From assembly GCA_020161615.1 (NCBI GenBank), contig JAIUPD010000008.1, forward strand, positions 124,001 to 188,000: a DNA stretch of 64,000 bases, given 5' to 3'. The position numbers and the translations under genes were made by a program. Under the pieces are notes generated by a model. It searched no databases and had not been told where the DNA came from. It worked only from the letters and a program-made list of their open reading frames with translations. The first letter of the stretch is position 1; each line of letters opens with the position of its first letter. Source of the stretch: Pseudomonadota bacterium (GTDB taxonomy: Bacteria > Pseudomonadota > Alphaproteobacteria > Rhodobacterales > Rhodobacteraceae). Shown here piece by piece: positions 18,800 to 59,096 of this stretch.

Positions 18800-18806
18800 C
18801 GCGCTC

Positions 18807-19352: not shown

Positions 19353-19364
19353 AGAATCCTCGTC

Positions 19365-20432: not shown

Positions 20433-20537
20433 GTCGGTCAGAATTCGGCAGGTCCAGGGGCGCGGCGGCCCGTCAATCCGGTTGCAAGGCGGGTCGCCCG
20501 CCCGTATCTGAGAGCCGCAGCAGGAAAGGATCATGTC

Positions 20538-32961: not shown

Positions 32962-34123
32962 CGCGCTGGTCATCGGCGCCGGTCCCGCCGGGCTGATGGC
33001 CGCCGATCGCCTGCTGGCCGCCGGATGCTCCGTGCTGCTGGCCGAGGCCAAGCCCTCCCCCGCGCGAAAGCTGCTGATGGCGGGGAAGTCCGGCCTCAAC
33101 ATCACCAAGGACGAGGGATTTGAGGCGTTCCTCGCCGCCTATGCCGAGGCCGCCGACTGGCTGCGCCCGATGCTGGCGGCTTTCGGCCCGGCCGAGGTTC
33201 AGGACTGGATGCGCGGCCATGGGCAGGCGGTGTTCACCGGCTCGTCAGGCCGGGTGTTCCCCAAGGCGATGAAGGCCTCGCCCCTGTTGCGCGCCTGGCT
33301 CGGGGATCTGTCGGGGCGCGGCCTCGACCTGCGGGCGCGCTGGCGCTGGACCGGGGCGGGCTTCGACACGCCGGAGGGGCCGGTCCGCGTGACGGCCAAG
33401 GCCACCGTGCTCGCGCTGGGGGGCGCCAGCTGGGCGCGGCTGGGGTCCGACGGGGGCTGGGCGCCGGTTCTGGCCGTGCGCGGCGTCGCGCTGGCGCCGT
33501 TCCAGCCAGCGAATATGGGGTTCCGGGTCGCATGGTCGGCGCATATGGCCCGGCATTTCGGCCAGCCGCTGAAGAACATCGCCCTGATCGCCGGCGCCCA
33601 ACGGGTGCGGGGCGAGGCGGTGATCTCGGCCAAGGGGCTGGAGGGCGGCGGGATCTATGCCGTGAGCCGCGCCCTGCGTGAGGGGGCGGCGCTCAGGATC
33701 GACCTCTTGCCCGACCTCGACGCGGCGGCGCTGGTGGAGCGCTTGGCGAAGCGGCCGAAGGGTGAGACGGCGGCCAATACCCTGCGCAAGCTCGGCCTGT
33801 CCGATGCCCGGCTGGCGCTGGTGCAAGAATGTGCCCGGCCCCTGCCTTCGGGGCCCGAGGAGCGTGCGGCGCTGCTGAAAGCCCTGCCGGTGCCCCTGCA
33901 AGGGCCGCGGCCGATGGATGAGGCGATCTCGACCGCCGGCGGCATTCCCCGGTCGGAGCTGACCGAAGACCTGATGCTGACACGCGTGCCCGGCTGGTTC
34001 GCGGCGGGCGAGATGCTGGATTGGGAGGCGCCCACGGGCGGCTATCTGCTCACCGCCTGCCTCGCGACCGGGCGCTGGGCGGGCAACGCTGCGGCGCGGT
34101 TCATCCAATCCCGGTCAGGATGA
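32951..34123 (+). CDS. FAD-dependent oxidoreductase, HI0933/YhiN (TIGR03862) family
   Basis: 390 aa. The N-terminal dinucleotide-binding motif is VIGAGPAGLMAADRLLAAG. KPSPARKLLMAGKSGLNIT and the C-terminal GEMLDWEAPTGGYLLTACLATG are the signatures of the HI0933-like flavoproteins (the PP_4765-type subgroup). The reaction is unknown. The ATG lies 11 bp inside dnaQ, suggesting coupled translation. The 3' end overlaps the convergent phosphopantetheinyl transferase gene by 23 bp. Confidence 0.85.
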   Translation: MKADALVIGAGPAGLMAADRLLAAGCSVLLAEAKPSPARKLLMAGKSGLNITKDEGFEAFLAAYAEAADWLRPMLAAFGPAEVQDWMRGHGQAVFTGSSGRVFPKAMKASPLLRAWLGDLSGRGLDLRARWRWTGAGFDTPEGPVRVTAKATVLALGGASWARLGSDGGWAPVLAVRGVALAPFQPANMGFRVAWSAHMARHFGQPLKNIALIAGAQRVRGEAVISAKGLEGGGIYAVSRALREGAALRIDLLPDLDAAALVERLAKRPKGETAANTLRKLGLSDARLALVQECARPLPSGPEERAALLKALPVPLQGPRPMDEAISTAGGIPRSELTEDLMLTRVPGWFAAGEMLDWEAPTGGYLLTACLATGRWAGNAAARFIQSRSG

Positions 34124-34721
34124 AGCCCGCGCCGATGGCGAAGCGCCCTTCCAAGGCCTGACCGGCGCGGAAGGGGCCGACATCGCGCTGCCAGACCGCC
34201 CGGAACACGCCATCGCCCAGCTCGATGGCGAAAGTCTCGAAGCCGAAAAGCTGTTTCGTGACAGGGTATTGTGCCTTGTAGGCGCATTCCTTGGCGCTGA
34301 AGATCAGCCGCGCTGTCCGTCCCTCTACGCCGAGTTTGTCGGGCAACAGCACCGTTTCTCGGACCTCCTCCGGCAGATCCTCATCCAGCTCCAGATCTAC
34401 CCCGACCAGCCCCGGCCCGGTCACGGCCAAGGCCCAGCCGCCCGCATGCGTGATTGACCCCCGCACGCCCTCGGGCCAGACCGGCGCCCGGTCCGGCCCC
34501 ATTGGCAGCGCCACATCGCGGCTCAAAGCCATTCGCGCCGCTGCCCGCCCGGCCGAGAATTCGGCCCGCCGCGCGGGGACCGCCCCGGCCAGCGCGGCCT
34601 CTTCTTCAGGTTTCAAGGAAACACCATCGACCGGCGCGATCCCCAGGGGCACCCCCGGAAACACCGACGCCGCCAGCCCGAGGAGCTGGCGGCGCAGGAA
34701 AGGATCGCCGGGCGCGCTCAC
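34101..34721 (-). CDS. 4'-phosphopantetheinyl transferase (EntD/Sfp type)
   Basis: 206 aa. GVDLELDED carries the magnesium-binding aspartate, and FSAKECAYKAQ the glutamate and lysine of the EntD-type active site. The upstream EFSAGRAAARMAL also matches EntD. It transfers phosphopantetheine from CoA to the serine of carrier domains. It is the last gene of the NRPS/PKS operon; its GTG start overlaps the NRPS stop by 4 bp. It is therefore the likely dedicated activator of S1422 of the NRPS and S1776 of the PKS. Confidence 0.92.
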   Translation of the reverse strand: MSAPGDPFLRRQLLGLAASVFPGVPLGIAPVDGVSLKPEEEAALAGAVPARRAEFSAGRAAARMALSRDVALPMGPDRAPVWPEGVRGSITHAGGWALAVTGPGLVGVDLELDEDLPEEVRETVLLPDKLGVEGRTARLIFSAKECAYKAQYPVTKQLFGFETFAIELGDGVFRAVWQRDVGPFRAGQALEGRFAIGAGFILTGIG

Positions 34722-37700
34722 CCCAGCTTGCTCAGCCGTTCCGCCCGCATCGCCCGGCGCTTGGACATCGCGTCCAGCCGCCCGCGCGCGGCCTCGGCCT
34801 CGACCGCCGGTTCGGGTGCTGCGGCCGGGGCGGCCACCGGCTTCAGCTTGCCGTCGATATGCCCGGCCAGCGCCGAGAGGACCGGGAAGCGGAAGACATC
34901 GGTGATCGACAGGCCGGGCAGCGACAGGCCCTCACGGATCTCGCGATGCGCCTGCACCGCCAGCAGCGAATGGCCGCCCAGCTGGAAGAAATTGTCCGAT
35001 GGCTTCACCTCGGCCACGCCCAGCACCCGCTGCCAGATCGCCGCGATCCGGGCCTGCGTGTCCCCGGCATTGGCCGCGACGGGCGCGGCGATCACCGCCG
35101 GGCGCACCAGCCCGGGCGCGGGCAGCGCCTTGCGGTCAATCTTCTTGTTCGGCGTCAGCGGGAAGCTCTCCAGCCGCACCACGGCCGAGGGGACCATATG
35201 CGCCGGCAGCACCCCGGCCAGCTGCGCCTTCAGCCCGACGGGATCGGCATGACCCAGCACATAGGCCACCAGCCGCACGTCGCCCGGCTGATCCTCGCGC
35301 GCCATGACCACCGATTGCGTGACCCCGGGCAGGGCATCGAGCTGCGTCTCGATCTCGCCTAGCTCGATCCGGTAGCCGCGGATCTTCACCTGATGATCGG
35401 CCCGGCCGAGGAAATCGACCCCGCCATCGGCCCTGAGCCGCACCAGATCGCCGGTGCGATAAAGCCGCTCGCCGCCGATCTCCACGAAGCGTTCCGCCGT
35501 CAGCGCCTCGCGCCGCCAATAGCCGCGCGTGACCCCGGCGCCGCCGATCCAGAGCTCCCCTTCCTGCCCGAGCGGTACGGGGCGTTGGTCCTGATCCAGC
35601 ACATGCAGCGTGGTATTGGCGATGGGCGTGCCGATGCCGACCACCCCCTCGCCACCCTTCGACAGCGCGGTCGTGGACCAGATCGTCGTCTCAGTCGGGC
35701 CGTACATGTTCTGCACCGGCCCGTCGACAATCCCGGCCAGATCGGCCGCCAGCGCGCCCGGCAGCGCCTCGCCGCCCACCATCAGATGTTTCACGTGCGA
35801 CAGCGTGGCGCGGGCCTCGTCATTGCTGGCCAGCATGCGCGCCATCGACGGGGTGCACTGCAGATGCGTCACGCCATGGCGCTGGATCTGCGCGGCCAGC
35901 GAGAAATCGTCCGCCGCCAGCTGTGCCGGCGCGTTCGAGCGCTTCAGGACCTCGGCCAGCGGCCAGAGCCCTTCCAGCACCTGCGACGTGGGGATGCCGT
36001 AATCGATCAGGCAGCCGATCTCGCCCACGCCGATCTTCTTCAGCTGCTCGACCCGGCGCAGGCAATCCTCGACCGTGCCGAACAGGCCGCTGTCTTCGAA
36101 ATAGCGGTTGAACGCATACTCCAGGATCCCGTCCACCTCGTCCTGGCTGAGCGAGCCGAGGTCGATGTCCATCGGGTTGCTGACGCCCTGCGGCTTCTTG
36201 AACGCGGGGAAGGCCCAGGCGTATTGCTTGACCAGCCCGGCGGCGGACAGAAGGTAGCTCTTCATCGGTCCGCGCGCGGTTTCCCGCGCCAGCTCCCGCG
36301 TCCGCGCCACATAGGTGTGCAGCATCAGGGTGACGGTGAAATCCTTGGGATCATGCCCCGCCTTGCGCAGGGCCTCGTGATAGATCCGGATCTTGCCCGC
36401 CACCTCGTCGATGGTCTGGCCCAGCAGATGGGTCAGCACATTGGCGCCGATCTCGCCCGCCTCGCGCCATGTATCGGGGTTGCCGGCGATGGTCAGCCAC
36501 AGCGGCAGTTCCTTCGACACCGGGCGCGGCAGCGATTGCACGGCGCGCATCGTGCCGTTGTGGTCGAATTCCACCGCCTCGCCGCGCCAGAGCTTGCGCA
36601 GCTTGTCGATCGTGTCGAACATCGCCGCCTTGTTGTTCGGAACCGAGTTCTCGGGCCTCAGCACGAAATCGACCGGATGCCAGCCCGAGGCCATGCCCAG
36701 CCCCGCGCGGCCATTGGTCAGGTTGTCGATCACCGCCCATTCCTCGGCGATCCTCAGCGGATGATGCAGCGGCGCCACGCAGGAGCCCGAGCGGACGTCG
36801 ATGTTCTTCGTCACCGCCGCCACCGCCGCTCCGGTCACCGAGGGGTTCGGATAAGGCCCGCCGAAGGCGTGGAAATGGCGTTCCGGCGTCCAGACGGCGC
36901 GGAAGCCGTGCGTATCGGCGAATTTCGCGCCTTCCAGCAGCAATTCGTATTTCTGCGGCCCGGGGCCGTCGTCATTGCCCCAGTAGAACAGGCTGAAATC
37001 CATCTTCTGGTCGAGGATCGGCAGCGAACCGCCCGAGACCATCATCCGGTCCTCGTCCGAGGTCAGCACCAGCTTGAAGCCGCGCGAGAGGGTCCAGAAC
37101 AGTTCCAGCACCGAAATGTCGAAGCTGAGCGAGGTGACGGCCAGCCAGACGCCCGGAGGCTGATGCTGGATTCGGTCATCCATCCCGGCGAAGAAATTCG
37201 CCACATTGCGGTGTTCGACCATCACGCCCTTGGGCAGGCCGGTCGAGCCGGACGTATAGATCAGATAGGCGAGGTTTTCGGGCGCGGCGCCGGTTGCCGG
37301 GTTCGCCTCCGGGGCCGTGGCCAGCCGGGTGTCGGTGTCCAGTACCAGCAATTCGGCGGCATGCGCGGGCAGGGCGTCGATCAGCCCCGATTGCGTGACG
37401 ATCACCGGCGCGCCGCTGTCGGTCAGGAAATGCTGCAAGCGGTCGGCGGGATAGGCGGGATCCATCGGCACATAGGCGCCGCCCGCCTTGAGGATGCCCA
37501 GCGCGCCGATCAGCAGCTCGGGCGAGCGGCGGGTGCAGAGGGCGACCGGCGTATCGGGCGCGATGCCGAGGCCCTGCAGCACATGCGCGACCTTGTTGGC
37601 GCGGGCGTTGAGCTGGGCATAGGTCAGGCTGATCCCTTCAAACACCAGCGCCACGGCATCCGGCGTGCGGGCGGCCTGCGCTTCGAACAGGCGGCTGAGG

Positions 37701-39232
37701 GTCTGGCTGTCGAAATCGCGGGCGGTGGCGTTCAGGCGATCCATGACCGTCCGTTCCGGCGCGCCAATCAGGTCGAGCGCGGCCAGCGGGGCCTCCGTCC
37801 CGGCCAGATGCGCGATCCGCGCGGCGAATAGGTCCAGCGTCGCTTCGTCCATGCGGCCCAGATCGGCCGACAGGACCAACCCCTCGGGTCCCGCGACCAG
37901 GCACAGCGCCGTGCCCTCGATCCGCTCGCCGGTCTCCGACAGGCCCAGTGCCGGGAGGGCCAGTGGCGCCAGCGCCGGGTCGCGGCCGATCAGGTCGCGG
38001 GCATAGGCGGGATGCGTCACCGCCACGGCCATGAGATCCAGGACCGAGGTCTCCAGCGCGCCCAGGCTCTCACCCTCGGGCATCATCGGCAGCCAGCCGG
38101 CGATATAGGCGGGGGCCTGGGCCTGCGCTTCAGCCGTGGCCCGGCCGCGATAGGCCCAGCCGCCCGGCACATAGGCGGCGATCACCGCCGCCGCCCGCGC
38201 CGCCGAAACCTCCGTCAGGGCGCGGGTGGCGATCCCCTGTCCCTGCGCCTTGGCGGCCAGTTCCGAGGGCGCGAAGCCGGTCAGGGCCTTGCGCCACCGT
38301 GCCTCGCCGGGTGCGAGCCGCGCCAAGGCCTCGGTCAGCGTCGGCGCGGGCAGGGGCAGAACCTCGCCCAGCGCCACGACCTCGCGTTCGGGCAAGCCGC
38401 CCAGACAGGTGATCCCGCCCAGACGGACCGCACCGGTGCCGCAGGCGATGACCGGCTCGTCACCGGCCTCCAACACCAGACCCGGCGCACCCTGACCCTC
38501 CACCGCCTCGGCCAGACCCACGGCGAAAACGCCCTTCGCGGTCTCGATCTTCGGCAGGGCCAGCGGGTTCCAATAGCCGCCGTGATCCAGCGCGCGCACC
38601 AGCAGCGCAACCTCAGCCGCCGGTCGCGAGAAATCGAGCCGCGCGGCCAGGGCCGGCCGGTCGTCGCGCTTGCAAAGCGTACGCTGGCTCAGATCCTGCG
38701 CGCGACGGCCGGGGATCCCGGCCTCCAGCGCGCCGACGACGAAGGGGAAACTCTCGATCGCGGCGGCATAGCACCGGGCGTTCAGCGAAATGGCAGTGTC
38801 GTCCGGCGCGATGTCGAACAGCGCCTGTTCGACGATATCGCCCTCATCCACGCCGCCCTCGATCAGATGCCAGGTAATCCCGTGCCGCGCCTCGCCTGCC
38901 ATCAGCGCCCAGACCGGAGCATTGAGCCCGGCATAGCGCGGCAGCGGGCCGTCGTGGAAATTGACCGCGCCCTTGGCCGCGCGGGAAAGCAGCGCCTCGG
39001 GCAGGACCGAGAGGTTGGCGATGGACAGCAGCCAGTCGAACCCGGCCGTCACCCGATCCTCGATCCCCTTGCCGGGGGCGACGACCGGGATGCCCGCGCC
39101 GGTGGCCCAGGCGATGACCTCAGGGTTGCGGCTGGCCACCGTGACGATCCGGTGTCCGCGGCCGGTCAGAACCTTGGCGCATTGCACCAACAGGGATTCG
39201 TTGCCCACCAGGACACATGAAAACGGCGTCAT
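34718..39232 (-). CDS. NRPS: formyltransferase - partial C - A interrupted by LLM - PCP
   Basis: 1504 aa. Order: formyltransferase domain (about 1-300) with N91, H93 (NFHDGPLPRY) and D129 (GGVDEGD), the catalytic triad of methionyl-tRNA-formyltransferase-like enzymes; a roughly 170-aa segment resembling the C-terminal half of a condensation domain, without HHxxxDG; adenylation domain, first part (about 500-735), with YTSGSTGLPKG at about 659; luciferase-like FMN monooxygenase of the MupA/Atu3671 type (about 744-1098); the rest of the A domain with MYGPTETTIW near 1177; and PCP with S1422 in LGGHSL. There is no thioesterase. By hand alignment to GrsA the specificity residues are D-I-L-Q-M-G-M-I-W-K, close to the glycine code. 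The ATG at 39232 has GGAG upstream; a TTG 18 bp earlier is less likely. One nucleotide separates it from the GT2 gene. Confidence 0.9.
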   Translation of the reverse strand: MTPFSCVLVGNESLLVQCAKVLTGRGHRIVTVASRNPEVIAWATGAGIPVVAPGKGIEDRVTAGFDWLLSIANLSVLPEALLSRAAKGAVNFHDGPLPRYAGLNAPVWALMAGEARHGITWHLIEGGVDEGDIVEQALFDIAPDDTAISLNARCYAAAIESFPFVVGALEAGIPGRRAQDLSQRTLCKRDDRPALAARLDFSRPAAEVALLVRALDHGGYWNPLALPKIETAKGVFAVGLAEAVEGQGAPGLVLEAGDEPVIACGTGAVRLGGITCLGGLPEREVVALGEVLPLPAPTLTEALARLAPGEARWRKALTGFAPSELAAKAQGQGIATRALTEVSAARAAAVIAAYVPGGWAYRGRATAEAQAQAPAYIAGWLPMMPEGESLGALETSVLDLMAVAVTHPAYARDLIGRDPALAPLALPALGLSETGERIEGTALCLVAGPEGLVLSADLGRMDEATLDLFAARIAHLAGTEAPLAALDLIGAPERTVMDRLNATARDFDSQTLSRLFEAQAARTPDAVALVFEGISLTYAQLNARANKVAHVLQGLGIAPDTPVALCTRRSPELLIGALGILKAGGAYVPMDPAYPADRLQHFLTDSGAPVIVTQSGLIDALPAHAAELLVLDTDTRLATAPEANPATGAAPENLAYLIYTSGSTGLPKGVMVEHRNVANFFAGMDDRIQHQPPGVWLAVTSLSFDISVLELFWTLSRGFKLVLTSDEDRMMVSGGSLPILDQKMDFSLFYWGNDDGPGPQKYELLLEGAKFADTHGFRAVWTPERHFHAFGGPYPNPSVTGAAVAAVTKNIDVRSGSCVAPLHHPLRIAEEWAVIDNLTNGRAGLGMASGWHPVDFVLRPENSVPNNKAAMFDTIDKLRKLWRGEAVEFDHNGTMRAVQSLPRPVSKELPLWLTIAGNPDTWREAGEIGANVLTHLLGQTIDEVAGKIRIYHEALRKAGHDPKDFTVTLMLHTYVARTRELARETARGPMKSYLLSAAGLVKQYAWAFPAFKKPQGVSNPMDIDLGSLSQDEVDGILEYAFNRYFEDSGLFGTVEDCLRRVEQLKKIGVGEIGCLIDYGIPTSQVLEGLWPLAEVLKRSNAPAQLAADDFSLAAQIQRHGVTHLQCTPSMARMLASNDEARATLSHVKHLMVGGEALPGALAADLAGIVDGPVQNMYGPTETTIWSTTALSKGGEGVVGIGTPIANTTLHVLDQDQRPVPLGQEGELWIGGAGVTRGYWRREALTAERFVEIGGERLYRTGDLVRLRADGGVDFLGRADHQVKIRGYRIELGEIETQLDALPGVTQSVVMAREDQPGDVRLVAYVLGHADPVGLKAQLAGVLPAHMVPSAVVRLESFPLTPNKKIDRKALPAPGLVRPAVIAAPVAANAGDTQARIAAIWQRVLGVAEVKPSDNFFQLGGHSLLAVQAHREIREGLSLPGLSITDVFRFPVLSALAGHIDGKLKPVAAPAAAPEPAVEAEAARGRLDAMSKRRAMRAERLSKLG

Positions 39233-39233
39233 C

Positions 39234-40190
39234 TCAACTCTCCTGCACAAGCCTTTTCGCGGGGCGCGATCCGAAGCTGTGTTTCAGAAGATCGCGGAGA
39301 AAATATGGCGGATTAACCTTGGGTTTGCGTTGCACGAGGACCCGGGCGCCATAGATCCCCAGCCCCGCCACATGCGCCAGCGTCGCCGCCATCGCATAGA
39401 GCCGCCCGTGGTTCTTTTCAAAATAGTACCGGCGTGAGCGGAACCAATACTCGGGCACCCGCCGCCATTCCTTCATCCCCGTGGACACCGAGCCCAGATG
39501 CATGACCCGGCTTTCCACCACATAGACCGTGGGCCAGCCCGCCATCGCCGCCCGGCGGCAGAGGTCGGTTTCCTCGAAGTAGAGGAAGAATGTCTCATCA
39601 AAGAGGCCAATCTGATCCAGGACCTTTTGCCGCATCAGGACCGACGCCCCCGCCAGCCAGTCCACCCGGGTCGTCTGCGTCGGCAGCGGCGGCGCGACGA
39701 TGGCGTTTTTCAGCAGTTTCGACACCGGACCGGTCTTCGCCGCCCCCTCCAACTCGCTGGCGATCGAGGGGAAGCGGAAGGCCGTGGTATGTGGCGCGCC
39801 ATCCTCGCCATGGATATGGCTGCCGGCAAAACCGACCTTGGGGTGGCTGTCCAGATACGCCACCAAGGCGCGGATCGCATCGGGCGCCGGGAAGGCGTCC
39901 GAGTTCAGGATATAGACGTAATCGGGTTTAGACCCGTCCGGCAGCCCGGCCTTGATCCCGACATTGTTGCCCGCGCCATAGCCGCCGTTGCGCCCTGACT
40001 GGATCACCCGCACCCGGAGCCAGTCGCGCGCCGCCTCGCTCATCGCCTCGAAACTGCCGTCCTGGCTGTCGTTGTCGACGATGGTGATGGCGCCCGGGAT
40101 CCCCTCCATGGCGATCAAGGCAGCTTCGGTGGCTTTCAGCGTCATCTCCGCCGTCCGCCAGTTCAGGATCACGCAGAGCACGCTTTTCAT
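39234..40190 (-). CDS. Family 2 glycosyltransferase (rhamnosyltransferase-like)
   Basis: 318 aa. The GT-A nucleotide-binding strand VILNWRTAEM, TIVDNDSQDGSF, the metal site ILNSDAF and the acceptor-side YFEETDLCRRA match the WcaE/RfbF-type GT2 proteins that add rhamnose or other sugars in polysaccharide or glycolipid synthesis. A C-terminal amphipathic stretch may attach it to the membrane. It lies between the PKS (4-bp overlap) and the NRPS (1-bp gap), so it is translated with them. That is unusual and suggests its acceptor is linked to the assembly-line product. Confidence 0.88.
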   Translation of the reverse strand: MKSVLCVILNWRTAEMTLKATEAALIAMEGIPGAITIVDNDSQDGSFEAMSEAARDWLRVRVIQSGRNGGYGAGNNVGIKAGLPDGSKPDYVYILNSDAFPAPDAIRALVAYLDSHPKVGFAGSHIHGEDGAPHTTAFRFPSIASELEGAAKTGPVSKLLKNAIVAPPLPTQTTRVDWLAGASVLMRQKVLDQIGLFDETFFLYFEETDLCRRAAMAGWPTVYVVESRVMHLGSVSTGMKEWRRVPEYWFRSRRYYFEKNHGRLYAMAATLAHVAGLGIYGARVLVQRKPKVNPPYFLRDLLKHSFGSRPAKRLVQES

Positions 40191-43100
40191 GCCTCGGCCT
40201 CCGCGATCAGGGCTTTCAGTTTTGCCGCCATCACCCGCACATTCGGCTCCAGCACCATGCTGTCATGGTCGCCCGGCACCTCATGGACCGAGAGTTTCGG
40301 CATGAAGCGCGACCAGTCGTTGTCATCATAGACGTATTCCTTGGCCCGGCTGACCCAGCGCCCGCCGGTCACCTTCCAGTGCCGGTCCAGCGGCGGGCGG
40401 AACAGGGCGACCGGCGCGTCGTAGGTTTCCAGCGCGACAAAGGGCAGCGCCTCGCGGAACGCGGCCTCGATGGCGCGGTTGTGGAAACCGCTGTCGGCCT
40501 CGCCCGCCGCTTCATAGGCCATGCGCGCCTGCTCCCGCTGCCAGCGCCTCCGCTCGGCCAGCCATTCGCCCAGATAGGCCGGGCCCTTGCGGCGGAATTC
40601 GGCCAGCTTGATCATCGCCTTGTCGGCGCGGCTGAGCCAGGGCCGTTCCGGCAGCGGCGTGTCCAGCAGCGTGAGCAGCCGGACGTCCTCGCCTTCGGCC
40701 CTGAGTTGCCTGGCCATTTCCAGCGCGGTCAGACCCCCGCCCGAGAAGCCGCCCAGCAGATAGGGGCCATGGGGTTGCACCTGCCGGACCTCGGCCAAGT
40801 AGTCGCGCGCGGCTTCATCCAGCCGCCGGTGCGGTTCGGCGCCGCCCAGCAGACCCCGGGCCTGTAGTCCGTAGAAGGGCCGGTCCTTGCCCAGCAATTG
40901 CGCCAGATGCCGCAGGTTCAGCACGTTGCCGAACATGCCCGCCACCAGGAAGAACGGGGTTTTCGTCCCGCCCTCGCCCTCGTGCATCGGCACCAGGAAT
41001 TCGTAGCGCTTGACCGGGGCGGCGACGGCAGGCGCCTCGCCCGTCTCGCTGATCCCGGCGATTTCGGCGACGCGGGCGGCGATCTTTTCCACCGTCGGCG
41101 CCTCGAACAGGACCGAGATCGGGAAATCCACGCTCCACGTCTTCTTGACCCGGGCAAAGAGGCGCACGGCGATCAGCGAATGGCCGCCCAGATCGAAGAA
41201 ACTGTCTTCGACGCCGACGCCCTCGACCCCCAGCAATTCCTCCCACATCGCCACCAGCATCCGCTCCACATCGTTGCGCGGCGCGACATAGGCGCTGTCG
41301 AGGTTCGGACGCTCGAACTTCTGCCCGTCGCCGGTCTCGGCCTCCAGCGGTTGCGCGGCCTCGGCGATCAATTCCGGCAGCGTCAGAGATGAAATCACCA
41401 CTTGCGACCGGCCGGTGCCCAGCGCCCGGAGGAAGGCCTCGCCCCCCTCGGCGGGCGTGATCCCCTGCGCCAGATTACGGGCCAGACGCGCCTCGCCCGG
41501 GCTGAGCGCGCGGTCATCGCCCGCGTCGCTGAACGCGACCTCGGAGGGCAACAGCGGCGCGGGCGTGCCGAAGCCGCCTTCCAGCCGCTTGATGGTAAAG
41601 CGCCGGATCTCGGCGCAGACCTGCCCCTCGGGCGTGGCCAGCGTCACGTCGAAACTGGCGAAACCGGGCTCGGCGGGGGCGATGCGGATATGGCTGACGA
41701 TCTGCGCGGGCAGCGCGGAATAGACCCTCACATTGCCATAACTGACCGGCACCCAGAGCGCGCGGCCCTGATAACCGGGGATCAGCTCCATCGCCCAACC
41801 GGTCGCCAAATCCATCAGCGCCGGATGCAGGACATAACCCTGCTCCAGATCGGCGCGGAAGGCCTCCGGCAGCGACAGCCGGGCGATCCCCTCGCCCTGG
41901 CCATAGGCCACGCGGTTCAGCACCCGCCAGCGGGGGCCGAAATTCAGGTGATGCTCCTGCCCCGTGGCGATGCCGCCTGCATCCTCGCGAATGCCGGTCA
42001 GGCAGCGCGCTTCAAGCGCGGCCACGTCCAGCGTCCCGGCCGCAGGAATCGCCCCCATGGTCACCCGGGCCGAGGCGTTCAGGACAAAGCCCTTCCGGCC
42101 GCGCAGGCTGACCTCGGATCGCAGCGCGAAATCGTAGCCGGCGTCGGAGCGGGTCAGCACCACCTCCACCGCTTTCGGCTGATCCACCTCCACCGCGCGG
42201 AAGAAGGTCAGGTCGGCAATCTCGAAAGGCTCGACCTCGCCCTGCCCGTGCAGCGATTGCACGGCGATTTCCAGCATGCCGGTGCCGGGGACCAGCGCCT
42301 TGCCGTCCCTGGTCCGGTGTTCGTCCAGCAGCCACATGTCGGTCGAATAGGTCGCGGTGAAGCGCCGGTTCATCGCCGCGTCGAAACCCACGCGGTCCAG
42401 CAACGGCACCGTTGCGGGCGCGTCGGGCAAGGCGGGCGCCTTGCCGCTGCGGGCCGCCATCGCCTCGGCCGCCATGCCGACCTCAGCCCAGATCCCCCAA
42501 TCGATGGCGGTGACTTTCGTCTTCCCGCTGCGGGCCTTGGCCCAGGCGTTCAGGTATTCGTTGGCGGCGACGTAATCGACCTGCCCGGCCGGGGCGGTGA
42601 GGGTCGAGGTCGAGGAGAAGACCACGATCCGCTCCACTGCGCCATCGGGCAGCAACGTGTCCAGCACCCGCGTGCCGTGGACCTTGGGCGCGAAGACCGA
42701 TTCCACGCTGCCGACCGTCTTGGCGGCGAGCGGGGCGTCGTCGATGGCCCCGGCGGCGTGGATGATTCCGTGGATCGCCCCGAAGCGGGCCTTCGCCGCC
42801 TCCAGCGCGCGGCGCATGTCATCGATGTTGCAGACATCGGCCGCGGCGGTCATCACCTCGGCGCCGAGCGATTCCAGTCTCTCCACCTGCAGAATCCGGC
42901 GCAAGGCGGGACCGCCCTGGGCCTTCACCGCCTCCCATGCCGAACGGGGCGGCAGGGCGGTGCGGGCCAGCAGCACGATCTTGGCTCGCGAGCGCTGGAT
43001 CAGTGCCTCGGCCACCGTCTGCCCGATCCCGCCGAAGCCGCCGGTGATGACCCAGACCCCACCCTGCGGCAGATCGGGAAGGGCGTCCAGCGGCTGCGGG

Positions 43101-46100
43101 CGCAGCCGCTGTTCGTAGCGCTTGCCGTCCCTCTGTGCTGCAACAGCGACCGAGGGCGTCGCCAGCAATTCTTCCAGCAACCCCGCGCTCTGATCCGGGC
43201 CGCGCTTGCGAGTCCGGGGCTCGATATCCAGCGTGGAAACGGTGATCCCCGGCATTTCATGCGGCATGACCCGGGCGGGACCGGCGATCAGCGCCTTTTC
43301 CGGCCAGCGCAAAACCTCGTCTCGGACCTGCGCCGCGCCGGCTGTGATCACAGTGGTATGGATCGGACCCGCCAGCCCTTCGGCGGCGATGGCCTGGCCG
43401 AGGAACAGCAGCGAATAGAACCCCTGTTCAACATGGGCCTGGAACGCGCTCGACCCCGGGCGGAAATGTTCCTCACCGCTCGCCAGCCAGAAATGGGCAA
43501 TCCTTGTGGGGACCGTGCCGCGATGCACCAGATCCTGCATCAGCTGGTCATAGCCCTCGCGCCCGCGTTCGGGCGGCAGGCTATAGGCACTGTCGCCCCG
43601 GCGGCGGAAGGTGTCGCCGGCCTGAACCTCGATCACCTTCTGACCCCCGGCGCGCAACCGGGCGATGACCGGGGCGGCGATGCCGTCCTGATCGGCGAAG
43701 ATGAGCCAGGTTTCGGCCATCGAGGCCAGCGCGGCATCCAGATCCGCCTCCACCTCGGCCGAGCGGGCGACCCAGGCGAGCCTTGTGCCCATCTGCGTGA
43801 CGTCCTCGATCCGGGCGGGCAGCGCGACGGCGGTCTCCGCGACGGGTTTGGCGGGGGCGATGAAGTAGTCGCGGCGCTCGAAGGGATAGGTCGGCAGCGG
43901 CAGTTTCACCCGCCGCGCCTCACCCCAGATCTGGCTCCAGTCGAAGGTCCCGCCCAGCGCCCAGATCCGGCCCAAGAGGCCCATGTGGTAAAGGTCGTCG
44001 GCGATCGCTTCCTCAGGGTGGCGCAGGACGGCGAGAACCTGCTGACCGGGGACCGCGCCGTGCATCCGAGTGAGCGAGGAGAGCGCCTTGCCCGGCCCCA
44101 CCTCGATCCAGATGCGATTGGGGTTTTCGGCAAGGTGAGAGACGCATTCGGCAAACAGTACCGTGTTGCGCAGGTGCTGCGTCCAATAGTCCGGGCTGGT
44201 CGCCTGCTCGGCGGTCAAGGGCTGGCCGGTGCGGTTCGAGATGATCGGCAGGCGCGGCGCCTGCAGCGGGATGGAGGCGAGGAAGGCGCGGAACTGGCCG
44301 AGGATCGGCTCCAGCATCCGGGAATGCGCGGCGATGTCGATGGCGATGCGCTGGGTGTCGATCCCATCCGCCGAGAGCCGCGCAGCCAGATCGACCAGCG
44401 CCGCATCGGGGCCGGAGACGACCGTCAGCTCCGGCGCGTTCACGGACGCGATGTCCAGATCGCCCAGATAAGGCGTGAGCGCCGCGACCGACAGCGGCAC
44501 CGACAGCATCCCGCCCGCAGGCACCGTGTCGAAGAGCGAGCCCCGCAGATGCACCAGCGCGATGCAATCCTCAAATGACAGCACCCCGGCCAGACAGGCG
44601 GCGGTATTCTCGCCCATGGAATGGCCGACCAGCGCGGCGGGCTGGACACCCCATGCCATCAGCATCTGCGCCAGCGCGTATTCGGTGATCATGATCAGCG
44701 GCAACTGGACGGACGGCTGTTTCAGCGTCTCGTCGGCCGCAGCCTCGGCCCCCTTTTCGGGCAGCCACAGCGCGCGGATGTCGTAGGAGAGGCGCGGTTG
44801 CAGGATCTCCAGCCCCCGGTCCATCCATTCGGCGAAGACCGGCTCTGTCTCGTAGAGGTCGCGCGACATACCGGCGTATTGCGCGCCGCCCCCGGGGAAC
44901 AGGAACACCACATCGGGATTGTCCAGCGCGGTATGGGTAAAGACCCGGCGCGGGTTGTCGGTCTCCAGAAGGTCCGCGGCTTCCTCGGCCGTTTCCGCCA
45001 CCACCACCCGGCGCTTGTCAAAGGCGCGGCGGCCCTTGTGCAGGGTCCAGGCGGTATCAGCCAGGTCGATCCCCGGGTTGGCGCGTAGATGGGCCGCCAG
45101 CCCCTTGGCCTGCGCGTCGAGCGCGGATTTCGAGCGGGCGGAGAGGGTGAACAGCTGGAAGGGCCAGTCGGAGTCCTCGGAGGGGGCGCGGGCGGGCGCT
45201 TCCTCCAGGATTGCATGGGCATTGGTGCCGCCGACGCCCAGCGAGTTGATGCCGGCGCGGCGGGCATGGCCGCGCTGTTCCCAAGGCGTGAGCGCCGCGT
45301 TGACGGCGAAGGGGGAGGTGGCGAAATCAATCGTCGGGTTCGGCGCCTCATAGCCCAGGGAGGGCGGAATCTCGCGGTGATGCAGCGACAGCGCCACTTT
45401 GATCAGGCTGGCGACCCCGGCGGCGGTGTCCAGATGCCCGATGTTGGTCTTGACCGAGCCGATCTTGCAGAATTGCACGGCGTCGGTCTGGTCGCGGAAG
45501 GCTTGCGTCATGGCCGCGACCTCGATGGGATCGCCCAGATAGGTGCCGGTGCCGTGGCATTCGATGTAGTCGATGGTCTCGGCCGGGACATCCGCCACCG
45601 CCTGCGCCTCGGCCACGCAGCGCGCCTGCCCTTCGACCGAGGGCGCCAGATAGCCTGCCTTCTGCGCCCCGTCGTTGTTGATGGCCGAGCCCTTCAGCAC
45701 AGCCCAGATGTGGTCGCCGTCCCTGACCGCATCGGCCAGCCGCTTCAGCACCACGCAACCGGCGCCGGAGCCGAAGACGGTCCCCTGCGCGCGGTGGTCG
45801 AAGGCGTGGCATTCGCCGTCCGGGCTGAGGATCTCGTTTTCCTTGTAGAGATAGCCGCGCATCTGCGGCAGCTCGATGGTCACGCCACCGGCCAGCGCCA
45901 TGTCGCATTCGCCGCTCAGCAGGGCCTGCGCCGCGTAATGCAGCGCCACCAGCGAGGTGGAGCAGGCGGTCTGCACATTCACCGAGGGGCCGCGCAGGTC
46001 GAAGATGTGGCTGACGCGGGTTGACAGGAAATCCTTGTCATTGCCGGTGTGGCGCAACAGGAAGGCGCCCACGTCCCGCACCAGATCGCGGTTCGAGTTG

Positions 46101-46504
46101 ATGTTGACCCAGTAATAGGTCCCCTGCCCGCAGCCCGCATAAACACCGATATTGCCCTCGAAATCCTCGGGCACCGTGCCGGAATCCTCCAGCGCCTCCC
46201 AGGCGACCTCAAGGAATTGCCGGTGCTGGGGGTCGAGGATCGCGGCCTCTTTCGGCGAGAAACCGAAGAAATCGGCGTCGAAACTGGCGAAATCCTTCAG
46301 CGGCGCGGCGAAGGGCACGTAATTCGGCAGGCGCATGACGGCAGGGTCTTCGCCCGCGGCCAGAAGCTCGTCCTCGGACAGACGGCGGATCGCGCGCAGG
46401 CCGCCCCGCAGCATCGCCCAATAGTCGCGGACCGATTCTGCCCCCGGAAGATGCGCGGCCATGCCGGTGATGGCGATATCGGTATCAGAAATTTCAACGG
46501 ACAT
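40187..46504 (-). CDS. Type I modular polyketide synthase: KS-AT-KR-DH-ACP-TE
   Basis: 2105 aa. Ketosynthase with C181 (TACSTSL), H317 (ECHGTGT) and H357 (NIGHLD). Acyltransferase with S629 (GHSMGE) and a non-standard AAHS specificity motif, so malonyl is likely but not certain. Ketoreductase with GGFGGIG near 1150 and Y1311. Dehydratase after, not before, the KR, with H1396 (DEHRTRDG) and D1565 (HPALMD). Carrier domain with S1776. Type I thioesterase with S1921 (GFSGGG). There is no enoylreductase. One round of extension, ketone reduction and dehydration is predicted, then release. The ATG at 46504 lies 90 bp downstream of the polymerase gene. With the NRPS it forms a hybrid line in which the PCP presumably feeds the KS. 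Confidence 0.93.
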   Translation of the reverse strand: MSVEISDTDIAITGMAAHLPGAESVRDYWAMLRGGLRAIRRLSEDELLAAGEDPAVMRLPNYVPFAAPLKDFASFDADFFGFSPKEAAILDPQHRQFLEVAWEALEDSGTVPEDFEGNIGVYAGCGQGTYYWVNINSNRDLVRDVGAFLLRHTGNDKDFLSTRVSHIFDLRGPSVNVQTACSTSLVALHYAAQALLSGECDMALAGGVTIELPQMRGYLYKENEILSPDGECHAFDHRAQGTVFGSGAGCVVLKRLADAVRDGDHIWAVLKGSAINNDGAQKAGYLAPSVEGQARCVAEAQAVADVPAETIDYIECHGTGTYLGDPIEVAAMTQAFRDQTDAVQFCKIGSVKTNIGHLDTAAGVASLIKVALSLHHREIPPSLGYEAPNPTIDFATSPFAVNAALTPWEQRGHARRAGINSLGVGGTNAHAILEEAPARAPSEDSDWPFQLFTLSARSKSALDAQAKGLAAHLRANPGIDLADTAWTLHKGRRAFDKRRVVVAETAEEAADLLETDNPRRVFTHTALDNPDVVFLFPGGGAQYAGMSRDLYETEPVFAEWMDRGLEILQPRLSYDIRALWLPEKGAEAAADETLKQPSVQLPLIMITEYALAQMLMAWGVQPAALVGHSMGENTAACLAGVLSFEDCIALVHLRGSLFDTVPAGGMLSVPLSVAALTPYLGDLDIASVNAPELTVVSGPDAALVDLAARLSADGIDTQRIAIDIAAHSRMLEPILGQFRAFLASIPLQAPRLPIISNRTGQPLTAEQATSPDYWTQHLRNTVLFAECVSHLAENPNRIWIEVGPGKALSSLTRMHGAVPGQQVLAVLRHPEEAIADDLYHMGLLGRIWALGGTFDWSQIWGEARRVKLPLPTYPFERRDYFIAPAKPVAETAVALPARIEDVTQMGTRLAWVARSAEVEADLDAALASMAETWLIFADQDGIAAPVIARLRAGGQKVIEVQAGDTFRRRGDSAYSLPPERGREGYDQLMQDLVHRGTVPTRIAHFWLASGEEHFRPGSSAFQAHVEQGFYSLLFLGQAIAAEGLAGPIHTTVITAGAAQVRDEVLRWPEKALIAGPARVMPHEMPGITVSTLDIEPRTRKRGPDQSAGLLEELLATPSVAVAAQRDGKRYEQRLRPQPLDALPDLPQGGVWVITGGFGGIGQTVAEALIQRSRAKIVLLARTALPPRSAWEAVKAQGGPALRRILQVERLESLGAEVMTAAADVCNIDDMRRALEAAKARFGAIHGIIHAAGAIDDAPLAAKTVGSVESVFAPKVHGTRVLDTLLPDGAVERIVVFSSTSTLTAPAGQVDYVAANEYLNAWAKARSGKTKVTAIDWGIWAEVGMAAEAMAARSGKAPALPDAPATVPLLDRVGFDAAMNRRFTATYSTDMWLLDEHRTRDGKALVPGTGMLEIAVQSLHGQGEVEPFEIADLTFFRAVEVDQPKAVEVVLTRSDAGYDFALRSEVSLRGRKGFVLNASARVTMGAIPAAGTLDVAALEARCLTGIREDAGGIATGQEHHLNFGPRWRVLNRVAYGQGEGIARLSLPEAFRADLEQGYVLHPALMDLATGWAMELIPGYQGRALWVPVSYGNVRVYSALPAQIVSHIRIAPAEPGFASFDVTLATPEGQVCAEIRRFTIKRLEGGFGTPAPLLPSEVAFSDAGDDRALSPGEARLARNLAQGITPAEGGEAFLRALGTGRSQVVISSLTLPELIAEAAQPLEAETGDGQKFERPNLDSAYVAPRNDVERMLVAMWEELLGVEGVGVEDSFFDLGGHSLIAVRLFARVKKTWSVDFPISVLFEAPTVEKIAARVAEIAGISETGEAPAVAAPVKRYEFLVPMHEGEGGTKTPFFLVAGMFGNVLNLRHLAQLLGKDRPFYGLQARGLLGGAEPHRRLDEAARDYLAEVRQVQPHGPYLLGGFSGGGLTALEMARQLRAEGEDVRLLTLLDTPLPERPWLSRADKAMIKLAEFRRKGPAYLGEWLAERRRWQREQARMAYEAAGEADSGFHNRAIEAAFREALPFVALETYDAPVALFRPPLDRHWKVTGGRWVSRAKEYVYDDNDWSRFMPKLSVHEVPGDHDSMVLEPNVRVMAAKLKALIAEAEA

Positions 46505-46561
46505 GGCAGGCCTGCGCAGGGATATTTACCACGAAACACTGGCGTTTCTTTGGGGCGAGAG

Positions 46562-46580
46562 TGGCCCGCCAATCGGGCCA
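46562..46580 (-). other. Small hairpin in the polymerase-PKS gap
   Basis: A 7-bp stem with a 5-nt loop (TGGCCCG ... CGGGCCA) sits in the 90-bp gap between the Wzy-like stop and the PKS start. There is no T-run after it on the coding strand, so it is more likely an RNA-stability or attenuation element than a full terminator. Confidence 0.4.
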
Positions 46581-46594
46581 AACGGTGGCGGGGG

Positions 46595-48124
46595 TCACAG
46601 CAGCGTCCGCGGTCCGCGGGCTCCGCTCGGACCGCGCGGCGGGGCCTCGGCCGGGCGCAGGCCCAGCACGACCCCGCCATGCGCCCGCCGCAACGAGTCG
46701 CGCTGCACGGCGTCAGTGGCGCGTTTCATCGCTTCGGCATAACCCAGAAGCGCCCCGGCGATGAGCCAGGTGAAAGGGATCAGCGTGGCGTTGGGCAGCA
46801 TGTCCAGCATGTTCACCGCCAGGATCAGCGTCAGCGTACTGGCTTCGACGGGCAGGGGCGCGGCGCCTTTTCGTCGCGCCTGCCAGGTCAGGGACAGGAC
46901 CGGCAGCGCCATCAGCCCGAACAGCGCCAGATACCCCAGCCAGCCGTAATGGCCGATGGTGATGATCCACTGGCCGTCCACCACGCTCTGACTTTCGCCG
47001 GTCGCCGGGTCGTAGACCGCGAACCGGCCCCAGCCGCCCCAGCCGAAGAGCGGCTTCTCCGCCACATGGTCGAGGATCCGCTGTTCGTTGGTGAAGCGGT
47101 ATTCCAGCGATTCCCGCCGCTCCTCGCTGATCGTGGATACCTGGTCCAGGATCGCCCGCGTCGGCACCAGACCCGCGCCCCGCAGCAGCGGATAGGTGAT
47201 CACCAGAAGCACGATCAGGCTGGAGATCGCCAGATGCAGGCGCGGCTTCACGATCAGCACCAGCGGCACGAAGATAAGCGTGTAAAGCAGCGGCCCCATG
47301 GATTTGGTCAGAATCACCAGGCCGAAACCGGCCAGCACCAGCAGCAGTTTCAGGCCCGACCGGCTGTCGGCCCCCCGCGCGGCGCGCAGCCGGGCGGCGG
47401 CGGCCATGGTGACCATGAAGGCGAAGAACGCGACCCAGAGCCCGTGCGGCATGAAGACGAAGGGCCGGTAGCCCCCCTGTCGGATCGCCTGGTTGAAATC
47501 GTGCTGGAAAAAGCCGTAGAGCCTGGTGTGCAGTTGCGGCGACATCCGCACCTCGTAGAGCATCGGCAGGGTATAGATCGCCCCGGCGATGACCAGTGCC
47601 AGCAGGATCTCGCGTAGGCCCTCGTCGGTCTTCAGCACCTCGCGCGCCAGGAAGAAGGGCAGCGCGAAGAAGATCTGCTGCACCAGCACCGAGGCGGAAT
47701 CGTAGATCCTGAGTCCCGGCAGGCCCCAGATCTCCAGCGCGTTGGGATCGACCAGCCGCATGGTTCCGAAGGTATCGATGCCAAAGCGGATGGGATCGGT
47801 ATTCGTGACCACGGTGACGACCGGGCTGATCAGGAACATGACCAGCAGCACCCGGCCGATCCAGGCCCGGGGCAACGGGTTCGGCATCTTGCCCCAGTAG
47901 GAAAGGCAGACGGCAAAGGCCATCAGGTTGGGGATGCTCTCCTTGTTCAGGGGCGGGATCAGCGGCAGGTCGATGGCGCTGATCTGCGGCAGCAGCATAT
48001 AGGCGCCCAGGATCGACCAGATCAGCGCCCGGGTCTGCGGCATGACGCGGAAGAACCAGACGATCACCACCGGCCAGCCCAGCAGCGCCAGCAACGCAAC
48101 GATATTGCCGATCTGGATCAACAT
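46595..48124 (-). CDS. O-antigen ligase/polymerase-like (Wzy/WaaL) membrane protein
   Basis: 509 aa with roughly a dozen hydrophobic helices. A large loop near residues 340-400 carries the family-typical GWGGWGRF and the following DGQWIITIGHYGWLGYLALF, as in O-antigen ligase/polymerase (Wzy_C) proteins. Such proteins polymerise repeat units or ligate glycans in the periplasm. The last 30 residues are Arg/Pro/Gly-rich. It is the first gene of the leftward NRPS/PKS operon and is divergent from the WecG-type gene. This ties the assembly line to glycan export. Confidence 0.85.
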   Translation of the reverse strand: MLIQIGNIVALLALLGWPVVIVWFFRVMPQTRALIWSILGAYMLLPQISAIDLPLIPPLNKESIPNLMAFAVCLSYWGKMPNPLPRAWIGRVLLVMFLISPVVTVVTNTDPIRFGIDTFGTMRLVDPNALEIWGLPGLRIYDSASVLVQQIFFALPFFLAREVLKTDEGLREILLALVIAGAIYTLPMLYEVRMSPQLHTRLYGFFQHDFNQAIRQGGYRPFVFMPHGLWVAFFAFMVTMAAAARLRAARGADSRSGLKLLLVLAGFGLVILTKSMGPLLYTLIFVPLVLIVKPRLHLAISSLIVLLVITYPLLRGAGLVPTRAILDQVSTISEERRESLEYRFTNEQRILDHVAEKPLFGWGGWGRFAVYDPATGESQSVVDGQWIITIGHYGWLGYLALFGLMALPVLSLTWQARRKGAAPLPVEASTLTLILAVNMLDMLPNATLIPFTWLIAGALLGYAEAMKRATDAVQRDSLRRAHGGVVLGLRPAEAPPRGPSGARGPRTLL

Positions 48125-48288: not shown

Positions 48289-49065
48289 ATGCGTCCAGAC
48301 TATGGGGGTTTCGTGGAGTTTTCCTTTCCGCCCTGCACCGTCGCGGTGACCATGCCGGATGCCGGCGCGCTTCTGTCCGAGGTGAAGACCCGATTGCGGG
48401 CGGGCGAGGGTTTCGCGCTGGCGACCATCAACCTCGACCATCTGGTGAAACTGGCCCGGGACCCGTCCTTTCGCCCGGTCTATGCCGCGCAGGATCTGGT
48501 CTGCGCCGATGGCAATCCGATTGTCTGGCTGTCGAAACTGGCCCGCAGGCCCGTCTCGTTGGTGCCGGGCTCGGACATGGTGGTGCCGCTGGCGAGCCTC
48601 GCCGCGCGCGAAGGGGCGCCGGTTGCGCTGATGGGCTCCACCGCCGAGGCGCTGGCCGAGGCGGCCGAGGCGTTGAAGACCCGGGTCCCCGGGTTGCGCG
48701 TCGCGGCACAGATTGCCCCGCCCATGGGATTCGACCCGACGGGGGCCGAGGCCCGGCGGATCCTGCTGGACATCGCCGCCTCGGGCGCGCGGCTTACCTT
48801 CATCGCGCTGGGCGCCCCCAAGCAGGAGATGTTCGCCGCCTTCGGCCGCGAGGTGACGCCGCATATGGGCTTTGCCTCGATCGGGGCGGGGCTGGATTTC
48901 CTGGCCGGACGGCAGCAGCGGGCGCCGGAATGGGTGCGGGCCATCGCCATGGAATGGGCCTGGCGGATGCTGTCGAACCCCAGGCGGTTGGCCAAGCGCT
49001 ATCTCGATTGCGCGCTGATCCTGCCCGGCGAGGCGATCAAGGCCTGGCGGCTGCGCGGGTCCTGA
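48289..49065 (+). CDS. WecG/TagA/CpsF-family glycosyltransferase
   Basis: 258 aa. ATINLDHLVKLARDPSF, VCADGNPIVW and FIALGAPKQEMF are the landmarks of GT26 enzymes, which add N-acetylmannosamine(uronic acid)-type sugars to lipid-linked intermediates on the inner face of the membrane. The ATG at 48289 is used; a GTG eight codons later has a better ribosome site and could be the real start. The 164 bp separating it from the polymerase gene must contain divergent promoters, including a TATATT near 48235. Confidence 0.9.
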   Translation: MRPDYGGFVEFSFPPCTVAVTMPDAGALLSEVKTRLRAGEGFALATINLDHLVKLARDPSFRPVYAAQDLVCADGNPIVWLSKLARRPVSLVPGSDMVVPLASLAAREGAPVALMGSTAEALAEAAEALKTRVPGLRVAAQIAPPMGFDPTGAEARRILLDIAASGARLTFIALGAPKQEMFAAFGREVTPHMGFASIGAGLDFLAGRQQRAPEWVRAIAMEWAWRMLSNPRRLAKRYLDCALILPGEAIKAWRLRGS

Positions 49066-49148
49066 CCCGCAGGCTTCCCCCCGTTTGAGATTGCATCCGC
49101 GCCCCTCGCCGGGCATGGTGACGCAACTTTTTCAACCGGGAGGAAATG

Positions 49149-50257
<1,109 letters not shown>

Positions 50258-50258
<1 letters not shown>

Positions 50259-51120: not shown

Positions 51121-51225
51121 GCGGGGGGCCAGCCCCCCGCACCCCCCGCCAAAGGGGGTTTTCCACCCCCTTTGGATACCCCCGAGGATATTTGACGCGC
51201 AAAGATGACAGGGGCTTCGGCCCCT
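51121..51225. repeat. Palindrome-rich intergenic element between fghA and a GT2 gene
   Basis: Three hairpins lie in a row: GCGGGGGG/CCCCCCGC (51121-51140), CAAAGGGGG/CCCCCTTTG (51150-51174) and AGGGGC-TTCG-GCCCCT (51210-51225). The last has a stable UUCG-type loop and overlaps the GT2 stop. GAGGATATTTGACGCGCAAAG between them resembles a short intergenic element frequent in Rhodobacteraceae. The convergent setting suggests bidirectional termination. Confidence 0.65.
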
Positions 51226-52189: not shown

Positions 52190-52307
52190 CTTTCACCCCC
52201 GCTGCCGGGATTATGGGGGCGGGCCGGGTCCTGTCCAGCGTGCAGGTTTTTCTGGGCAAAGGCACCGCGATGTGTTGCATTCCTGCCTAACCAGAGGAGG
52301 AAAGACC

Positions 52308-58976: not shown

Positions 58977-59096
58977 AACCGACCCTTCGCGACGGCCTGC
59001 GGAGCGTCCGCGCCCCGCCATTTAACCCTCTGTTGACGGGAAAGCCTGTCACAAATAGGGCAGAAGCATGGTCATTGTCGATGAAACCGGCGCGAG

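Follow-up and report, generated by a model that had tools for sequence, protein, structure and literature searches.

The described systems that come closest to the locus analysed here resemble different parts of it. This locus encodes a type I polyketide synthase (PKS) and a protein related to non-ribosomal peptide synthetases (NRPS) among polysaccharide genes, and lies on contig JAIUPD010000008.1 of a 4.87 Mb genome, within the 64,000-nucleotide stretch at positions 124001-188000 that we call the window. In linear gramicidin synthesis LgrA (F-A-PCP) formylates the amino acid bound to its peptidyl carrier protein (PCP). Among PDB sequences LgrA matches our whole NRPS-like protein best. Like LgrA, this protein has an N-terminal formyltransferase, an adenylation (A) domain and a PCP; unlike LgrA, it has a formyltransferase closer to Met-tRNA formyltransferase and ArnA, an inserted monooxygenase, and a PKS as the next module. 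The glycine modules of myxothiazol and melithiazol synthesis, which we take to be those named MtaG and MelG, stand at the end of the chain with a condensation domain before them and a thioesterase (TE) after them, and release an amide. As the passages drawn on describe them, they have a glycine adenylation domain with a monooxygenase inserted between motifs A4 and A5, as here, and the glycine alpha carbon is hydroxylated and then cleaved. The window module differs in that a formyltransferase and a condensation remnant precede it and no TE follows, and it appears to load a PKS. SolF of the solanimycin system is described, in the passages used, as a glycine module that carries a flavin monooxygenase and works within a PKS/NRPS setting, whereas its insertion lies between a8 and a9, the system is multi-module, and the word "formyl" occurs 0 times in the paper's text. 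WcbR and RkpA are type I PKSs embedded in polysaccharide genes, a likeness purely of literature precedent, and the parts of that literature drawn on name no NRPS partner for them.

The original prediction placed five consecutive minus-strand genes here, for a Wzy-like polymerase, a PKS, a family 2 glycosyltransferase (GT2), an NRPS module and a phosphopantetheinyl transferase (PPTase), and both their coordinates and their family matches were borne out. The genes and the domains of the NRPS-like protein and the PKS are as follows:

46595..48124, minus strand: Wzy/O-antigen-ligase-like membrane polymerase (WZY; PF04932 at 32.8 bits, cut-off 31.7)
40187..46504, minus strand: type I PKS module of 2105 aa, KS-AT-KR-DH-ACP-TE (Pfam and NCBIfam matches, invariant residues)
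40187..40951, minus strand: thioesterase domain of the PKS, S1921/D1948/H2080 (PF00975; triad in 71/71)
39234..40190, minus strand: GT2 glycosyltransferase between PKS and NRPS (PF13641, PF00535)
34718..39250, minus strand: NRPS-like protein, FT-C'-A(monooxygenase)-PCP (Pfam and NCBIfam domains, invariant residues)
38381..39232, minus strand: formyltransferase domain, N97/H99/D135 (PF00551; residues kept in 81/81)
37706..38353, minus strand: condensation-domain remnant without HHxxxDG (profile match only to the C-terminal end of NRPS condensation domains plus linker)
35948..36997, minus strand: luciferase-like FMN monooxygenase interrupting the adenylation domain, A4/A5 (TIGR04020 at 470.9 bits, cut-off 244.45; PF00296)
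34856..35050, minus strand: peptidyl carrier domain (PF00550; GGHS in 81/81)
34721..34813, minus strand: basic C-terminal tail (loose R-rich pattern in 79/81 homologues)
34101..34721, minus strand: Sfp/EntD-type PPTase (PF17837, PF01648)

The PKS and GT2 genes overlap by 4 bp, as do the NRPS and PPTase genes, and a gap of 90 bp separates the Wzy-like gene from the PKS. An ATG at 39232, 1 bp after GT2, is a likelier start for the NRPS than the annotated 39250. Third-position GC content is of the coding type in four of the five genes, the PPTase having missed this filter.

The description of the second protein as an NRPS module holds for its adenylation and carrier domains; it lacks a recognisable functional condensation domain, and two further domains, the N-terminal formyltransferase and the monooxygenase within the adenylation domain, had been overlooked. 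In sequence as well as in fold, the best PDB matches of the formyltransferase are Met-tRNA formyltransferase and ArnA (mean pLDDT 93.6 for the model of residues 8-525), and its Asn-His-Asp residues, followed by A and PCP, reproduce the arrangement of an LgrA-type initiation module. At an E value of 0.001 a condensation-domain profile found no match in the NRPS-like protein, and HHxxxDG occurs in 0/81 NRPS homologues (residues 250-560 inspected). Because the condensation remnant is devoid of this motif in 81/81, we regard the protein as a loading rather than an elongating module. The monooxygenase (residues 752-1101) is flanked by what we take to be motifs A4 (707-719) and A5 (1181-1191), which is the myxothiazol-type position, and an alpha-carbon oxidation step built into the protein is predicted from these domains. 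Read at positions that we presume to correspond to those of PheA, the specificity code is DILQMGMIWK in the window and in 54/81 sequences, DILQLGMIWK in 24/81, and one of three other codes in 1/81 each. The window code agrees with DILQLGMIWK at 9/10 positions, while 24/81 homologues agree at 10/10; in the part of a published survey drawn on, DILQLGMIWK is the code of four glycine domains with an inserted monooxygenase. Since the code matches that of such domains, it points strongly to glycine, which is very likely the amino acid loaded, and given the formyltransferase this glycine is probably N-formylated. A docking role of the basic tail towards the PKS is possible.

The PKS is a single module without an enoylreductase (ER) match, with KR ahead of DH. 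The alignment comprised the window and 70 long open reading frames (ORFs) out of 78 PKS ORFs, 8 short ones being dropped. In 71/71 sequences the KS Cys-His-His, AT Ser, KR Ser-Tyr-Asn, DH His and Asp, ACP Ser and TE Ser-Asp-His residues are invariant, with catalytic roles that we assign from general knowledge. In the AT, GHSMGE is invariant and IAAHS nearly so (70/71 at the last residue), a pair that differs from the textbook one, and we assume that malonyl-CoA is used. In a Pfam scan the thioesterase match fell on the PKS; the NRPS showed none. The set A, PCP, KS, AT, ACP and TE of a hybrid line is complete, with its catalytic residues and a PPTase, and the active sites claimed to be intact proved invariant at the residues checked in 81 NRPS and 71 PKS sequences. 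These results support the proposed chemistry, in which one amino acid would be loaded, extended by one C2 unit with reduction and dehydration, and released by the TE.

Searching genome contigs by pattern brought up 429 stretches that contain some relative, and the best 80 of the 429 were used as loci. By their record titles, whose orders we assigned from general knowledge, 78/80 are Rhodobacterales. The exceptions are a Curvibacter metagenome-assembled genome (L026) and a Nocardioides record (L069), both of which may be taxonomically misplaced. PKS-GT2-NRPS order was found in 78/80 of these best loci and PKS-GT2-NRPS-PPTase order in 76/80, so the order recurs far beyond chance. Of the departures, two are short contigs (L024 and L046), one shows no PPTase (L020), and L026 has GT2-PKS-NRPS. 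The best segment of the window NRPS is 91% identical to the NRPS of Pararhodobacter aggregans (L010), which places the source genome near Pararhodobacter (Rhodobacterales).

Among 292 genomes of the order (at least 90% complete, 112 genera) the NRPS occurs in 125 (43%; 50/112 genera), with one match each, and all NRPS-bearing genomes among the matches listed belong to the window's own family. The PKS is present in the same 125 genomes, and three others have partial PKS matches at 39% identity; adjacency of the two genes was measured in the 80 loci. Some NRPS matches are partial, lacking about the first quarter (G203, G231) or stopping near residue 1400 (G044, G159, G273, G286), and an in-frame stop is present in G265, G273 and G276. 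Across the class, 289 genomes gave six NRPS matches, five from the same family and one from another family (G526) at 46%.

The original prediction called this layout unusual, which its frequency in the order does not support, and genome papers already list such hybrids or genes. In the passages drawn on, T1PKS/NRPS-like hybrids are reported from Roseibaca and relatives (18/37 of the species studied there), Tritonibacter, Sulfitobacter and Youngimonas, and PKS/NRPS genes from Phaeobacter inhibens; these are probably in part the same locus. Within the parts drawn on of the open-licence PMC literature, we found neither a product nor a polysaccharide link for them. The sources used in part are PMC4062626, PMC10584327, PMC10204066, PMC8739492, PMC12971057, PMC12283262, PMC3908369, PMC11225332, PMC10221251 and PMC12735020. 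What is unusual here, with novelty judged within that open-licence literature, is the link of thiotemplated biosynthesis to polysaccharide genes.

Around the module the window holds the set of a Wzx/Wzy-dependent cluster, with flippase, polymerase, chain-length protein, tyrosine kinase and glycosyltransferases:

48289..49065, plus strand: WecG/TagA/CpsF glycosyltransferase (WECG; PF03808; 38/80 loci)
51224..52189, minus strand: GT2 glycosyltransferase GT2b (PF00535; 33/80 loci)
56763..58067, minus strand: Wzz-type chain-length protein (PF02706; 39/80 loci)
58080..59021, minus strand: tyrosine-autokinase-like ATPase (BYK; PF10609; TIGR03018 below cut-off; 29/80 loci)
59097..60464, minus strand: Wzx-type flippase (PF13440; 29/80 loci)
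60697..61917, plus strand: GT4 glycosyltransferase, nearest NCBIfam model EpsE (below cut-off; 28/80 loci)
61890..62714, minus strand: GT2 glycosyltransferase GT2c (present with the NRPS in 120/292 genomes)
62711..64000, minus strand: X, glycosidase-like, signal-like N-terminus, running past the window end (whole ORF of 568 aa at L089:2711-4417)

That the assembly line is linked to such genes had been proposed, and both neighbour clustering and genome-wide co-occurrence support it. Clustering in the 80 loci, which covered at most 10 kb per side and yields lower bounds, placed the NRPS in 80, the PKS in 75, GT2 in 67, the PPTase in 59 and WZY in 50; below the other genes counted in the list above come X (27), GT2c (26) and, at 25, an SGNH-like protein, with the family after that in 10. 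With 17 shorter loci set aside, all 63 that span 23 kb or more contain at least one further cluster gene, 50 of them at least three and 30 at least five. Gene order varies around a constant set; for example, 12 loci read GT2b-WecG-Wzy-PKS-GT2-NRPS-PPT-SGNH-X-GT2c-GT4-Wzx-Wzz-BYK, four read X-GT2c-Wzx-PKS-GT2-NRPS-PPT-Wzz-BYK-GT2b-GT4, and five read BYK-Wzz-Wzy-PKS-GT2-NRPS-PPT. Across the 292 genomes, NRPS and GT2c are both present in 120 and both absent in 157, with 5 NRPS-only and 10 GT2c-only genomes (odds ratio 377, phylogeny being ignored); for X the corresponding figures are 106, 157, 19 and 10 (odds ratio 88, likewise). X lies on the NRPS contig in 90/106 genomes, always within 100 kb and in 83 within 25 kb, and on another contig in 16. 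Ordinary neighbour synteny was rejected as an explanation, since the orders vary while the gene set stays constant and the associations, uncorrected for phylogeny, extend genome-wide. The source genome has four PF02397 initiating sugar transferases, all on contigs other than that of the window; such a transferase is annotated beside the related loci of Ruegeria (two), Paracoccus, Parasedimentitalea and Shinella.

The same association appears in independent settings, among them Hyphomicrobiales plasmids and one distant family. In G526 the NRPS lies upstream of the PKS, about 20 bp apart with no GT2 between, among Wzz/kinase-like, Wzy-like, glycosyltransferase, epimerase and UDP-sugar dehydrogenase genes. 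On plasmids of Ruegeria (two), Paracoccus, Parasedimentitalea, Aminobacter and Shinella, PKS and NRPS stand beside sugar-transferase, flippase or glycosyltransferase genes; in Aminobacter and Shinella they are about 310 and 330 bp apart, again without GT2. Unannotated Rhizobium and Neorhizobium records searched by tblastn both contain PKS, NRPS, PPTase, WecG-like and Wzx-like genes. The plasmid records named here, Rhizobium and Neorhizobium included, are 8 of the 15 plasmid matches listed, with 14 further records beyond those. Residues checked in 5/9 NRPS and 7/9 PKS of the plasmid-type records are unchanged, save one code position. The PKS of Rhizobium sp. BG6 (L105) aligns as two overlapping pieces, possibly through a frameshift or sequencing error.

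Clusters lacking the module complete the picture. At the thresholds used, the ten GT2c-only genomes have no NRPS and no full PKS; a GT4 homologue lies near GT2c in 10/10, GT2b in eight, WZY in eight (two partial) and WecG in six (two at about 30%). Since polysaccharide clusters exist without the assembly line and the reverse is rare in the loci examined, the line looks like an optional cassette serving the polysaccharide. AMP-binding genes lie near GT2c in 4/10: a large protein with AMP-binding and carrier domains in G090 and G282, a protein of similar size in G130, and an ordinary ligase without carrier domain in G102. Sibling clusters without PKS and NRPS encode AMP-binding proteins of 869-991 aa (L120:1018-3627, minus; L125:8003-10978, plus; 19502-22159 of L121+L122, from G130), with a carrier domain in both of those tested and a C-terminal part that matches no family. 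These are possible alternative decoration enzymes, and decoration cassettes might on this basis be modular.

The reading we favour, held with about even confidence, is that the line is a dedicated but optional thiotemplated module within a polysaccharide cluster of the Wzx/Wzy type and makes a formamido-C4 acyl group as a decoration. The PPTase would arm the carrier domains of both proteins, the adenylation domain would put glycine on the PCP, and the formyltransferase would N-formylate it there. The embedded monooxygenase would, always or sometimes, hydroxylate the glycine alpha carbon, while the condensation remnant would form no bond and the protein would act as a loading module. The KS would then accept the formyl-glycyl starter and add one malonyl-type C2 unit, after which KR and DH would reduce and dehydrate the extended chain. 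The presence of a TE match on the PKS only and the position of the NRPS upstream of the PKS in G526 argue strongly for this working order. The TE would release or transfer a small N-formyl C4 acyl group, tentatively of the 4-formamido-but-2-enoyl type, though the domains only hint at the exact product. This group would most likely decorate a sugar of the polysaccharide built by the surrounding glycosyltransferases, flippase and polymerase, an attachment that we propose with moderate confidence. Because no acyltransferase among the neighbour families annotated is conserved throughout the loci, acyl transfer would fall to the TE or to an outside enzyme. TE domains that hand an acyl group to a sugar are known, that of Pks13 acting on trehalose. 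The original prediction had the product either glycosylated or attached to a polysaccharide: attachment is the part we retain as our favoured reading, and direct glycosylation by GT2 is not required, being weakened as a general mechanism by Aminobacter, Shinella and G526, where PKS and NRPS have no GT2 between them.

Several observations weigh against this reading. In 13/63 long loci the window queries turned up no more than two further cluster genes, though eight of these loci retain Wzy plus WecG or Wzz; 28 extra polysaccharide queries added a glycosyltransferase in L080 and an epimerase in L056, nothing in L059 beyond an SGNH-type protein and the GT2 of its own operon, and only a weak extra glycosyltransferase match in L026. 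The odds ratios are blind to phylogeny, and five NRPS genomes have no GT2c and 19 no X; one of those with neither (G003) has Wzz, BYK and GT-like genes beside the operon. PKS and NRPS lie on different contigs in G082, G203 and G231, perhaps through assembly breaks. Among neighbour families, annotated in part, no acyltransferase is conserved throughout the 80 loci, one Acyl_transf_3 family occurring in 7/80, and the open-licence PMC literature yielded no polysaccharide structure or mutant for such a locus. Finally, the monooxygenase could cleave glycine instead.

The alternative that survives best, unlikely as we judge it, is that the product is a small metabolite, free and exported and possibly a substrate of GT2 glycosylation, which travels with the polysaccharide island because both serve surface life. 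The TE domain and the adjoining GT2 would suit such a product, and papers treat such hybrids as metabolite clusters in the passages drawn on. Yet the only exporter among the neighbour families annotated is the flippase, the linkage persists through rearranged gene orders and into other orders and families, and GT2 is absent between PKS and NRPS in some settings. It is distinctly less probable that the product serves the polysaccharide as a lipid-like anchor, primer or cap rather than decorating its repeat unit. Such a role has reportedly been proposed for PKSs of the rkpA/wcbR type. PKS genes are known in capsule clusters, according to the passages used; however, one ER-less module fed by an amino-acid module would give a short polar acid, unless it works iteratively. 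We consider it quite improbable that N-formyl-hydroxyglycine is cleaved as in myxothiazol-type modules, with the glyoxylyl thioester as the PKS starter and formamide lost: the A4-A5 insertion and glycine code fit the cleaving type as described in the literature passages, but adding a formyl group only to discard it would be costly, and solanimycin B is described there as retaining hydroxyglycine. A signal controlling the polysaccharide cluster is most improbable, since co-inheritance is all that speaks for it and the neighbour families annotated include no receptor or regulator.

Two kinds of neighbour deserve separate mention. X has no Pfam match and no PDB sequence match, and its model (pLDDT 87.7) resembles GH10, GH5 and GH1 enzymes, a glycoside hydrolase fold class by our own assignment, in nearly all of its best 27 PDB matches, with TM-scores of at most about 0.5. 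On the strength of the model X is likely a polysaccharide-cutting enzyme, and it may represent a glycosidase family not yet described, one that occurs together with the NRPS. Three of the ten X-only genomes were inspected; X stands alone in two and with a PPTase in one (G162:C1 near 2521577, where X adjoins the PPTase without PKS or NRPS, perhaps as the relic of a lost cluster). Two X-only genomes, G020 and G075, are also in the GT2c-only set. The SGNH-type hydrolase (cluster 13, 25/80 loci) was considered as an obligate acyl-transfer enzyme and is weakened in that role: a search of the window, L089 and L090 found no meaningful relative of it or of the SGNH-like part of X (best E 0.3), and X in L089 is without that part. 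The ORF at L089:4451-5365 was rejected as such a hydrolase, as it looks non-coding. In L037, two SGNH-like proteins (17512-18483, plus, and the N-terminal part of 18486-21002, plus), found 3' of the PPTase in many relatives, show by eye the motif GHSL...D-IH-N, with a weak GDSL match for the second, and are candidate enzymes for removing or transferring acyl groups on the polysaccharide.

Other genes are interspersed in the polysaccharide region of the window. At 49146-51088 (plus) lie genes for S-(hydroxymethyl)glutathione dehydrogenase and S-formylglutathione hydrolase (formaldehyde oxidation), a pair also present in the close relatives L005, L007, L010 and L015; its position there is perhaps chance, though the formyltransferase does require one-carbon units. 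A thiolase-family protein and an acyl-CoA synthetase are encoded in tandem at 52137-55072 (plus), the former seen solely in L041 among the 80 loci.

Hybrid PKS/NRPS loci are usually taken to make free bioactive compounds; here a strongly conserved line is bound to polysaccharide genes, and this conserved co-location suggests a chemical decoration rather than a free drug-like molecule. It is conceivable, though we hold this only tentatively, that there is a widespread class of polysaccharides whose sugars are decorated by a hybrid NRPS-PKS with formylated, alpha-oxidised glycine plus one polyketide unit. In its boldest form, the proposal is that a reactive acyl group (an enamide, a hydroxylactam, or an aldehyde after glycine cleavage) might cross-link the matrix or make it adhere. 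The order that hosts the assembly line is rich in marine bacteria. If its members do decorate a matrix polysaccharide in this way, a cluster type listed in several genome papers would gain a function, and a route of thiotemplated chemistry to the bacterial surface would become testable in tractable strains.

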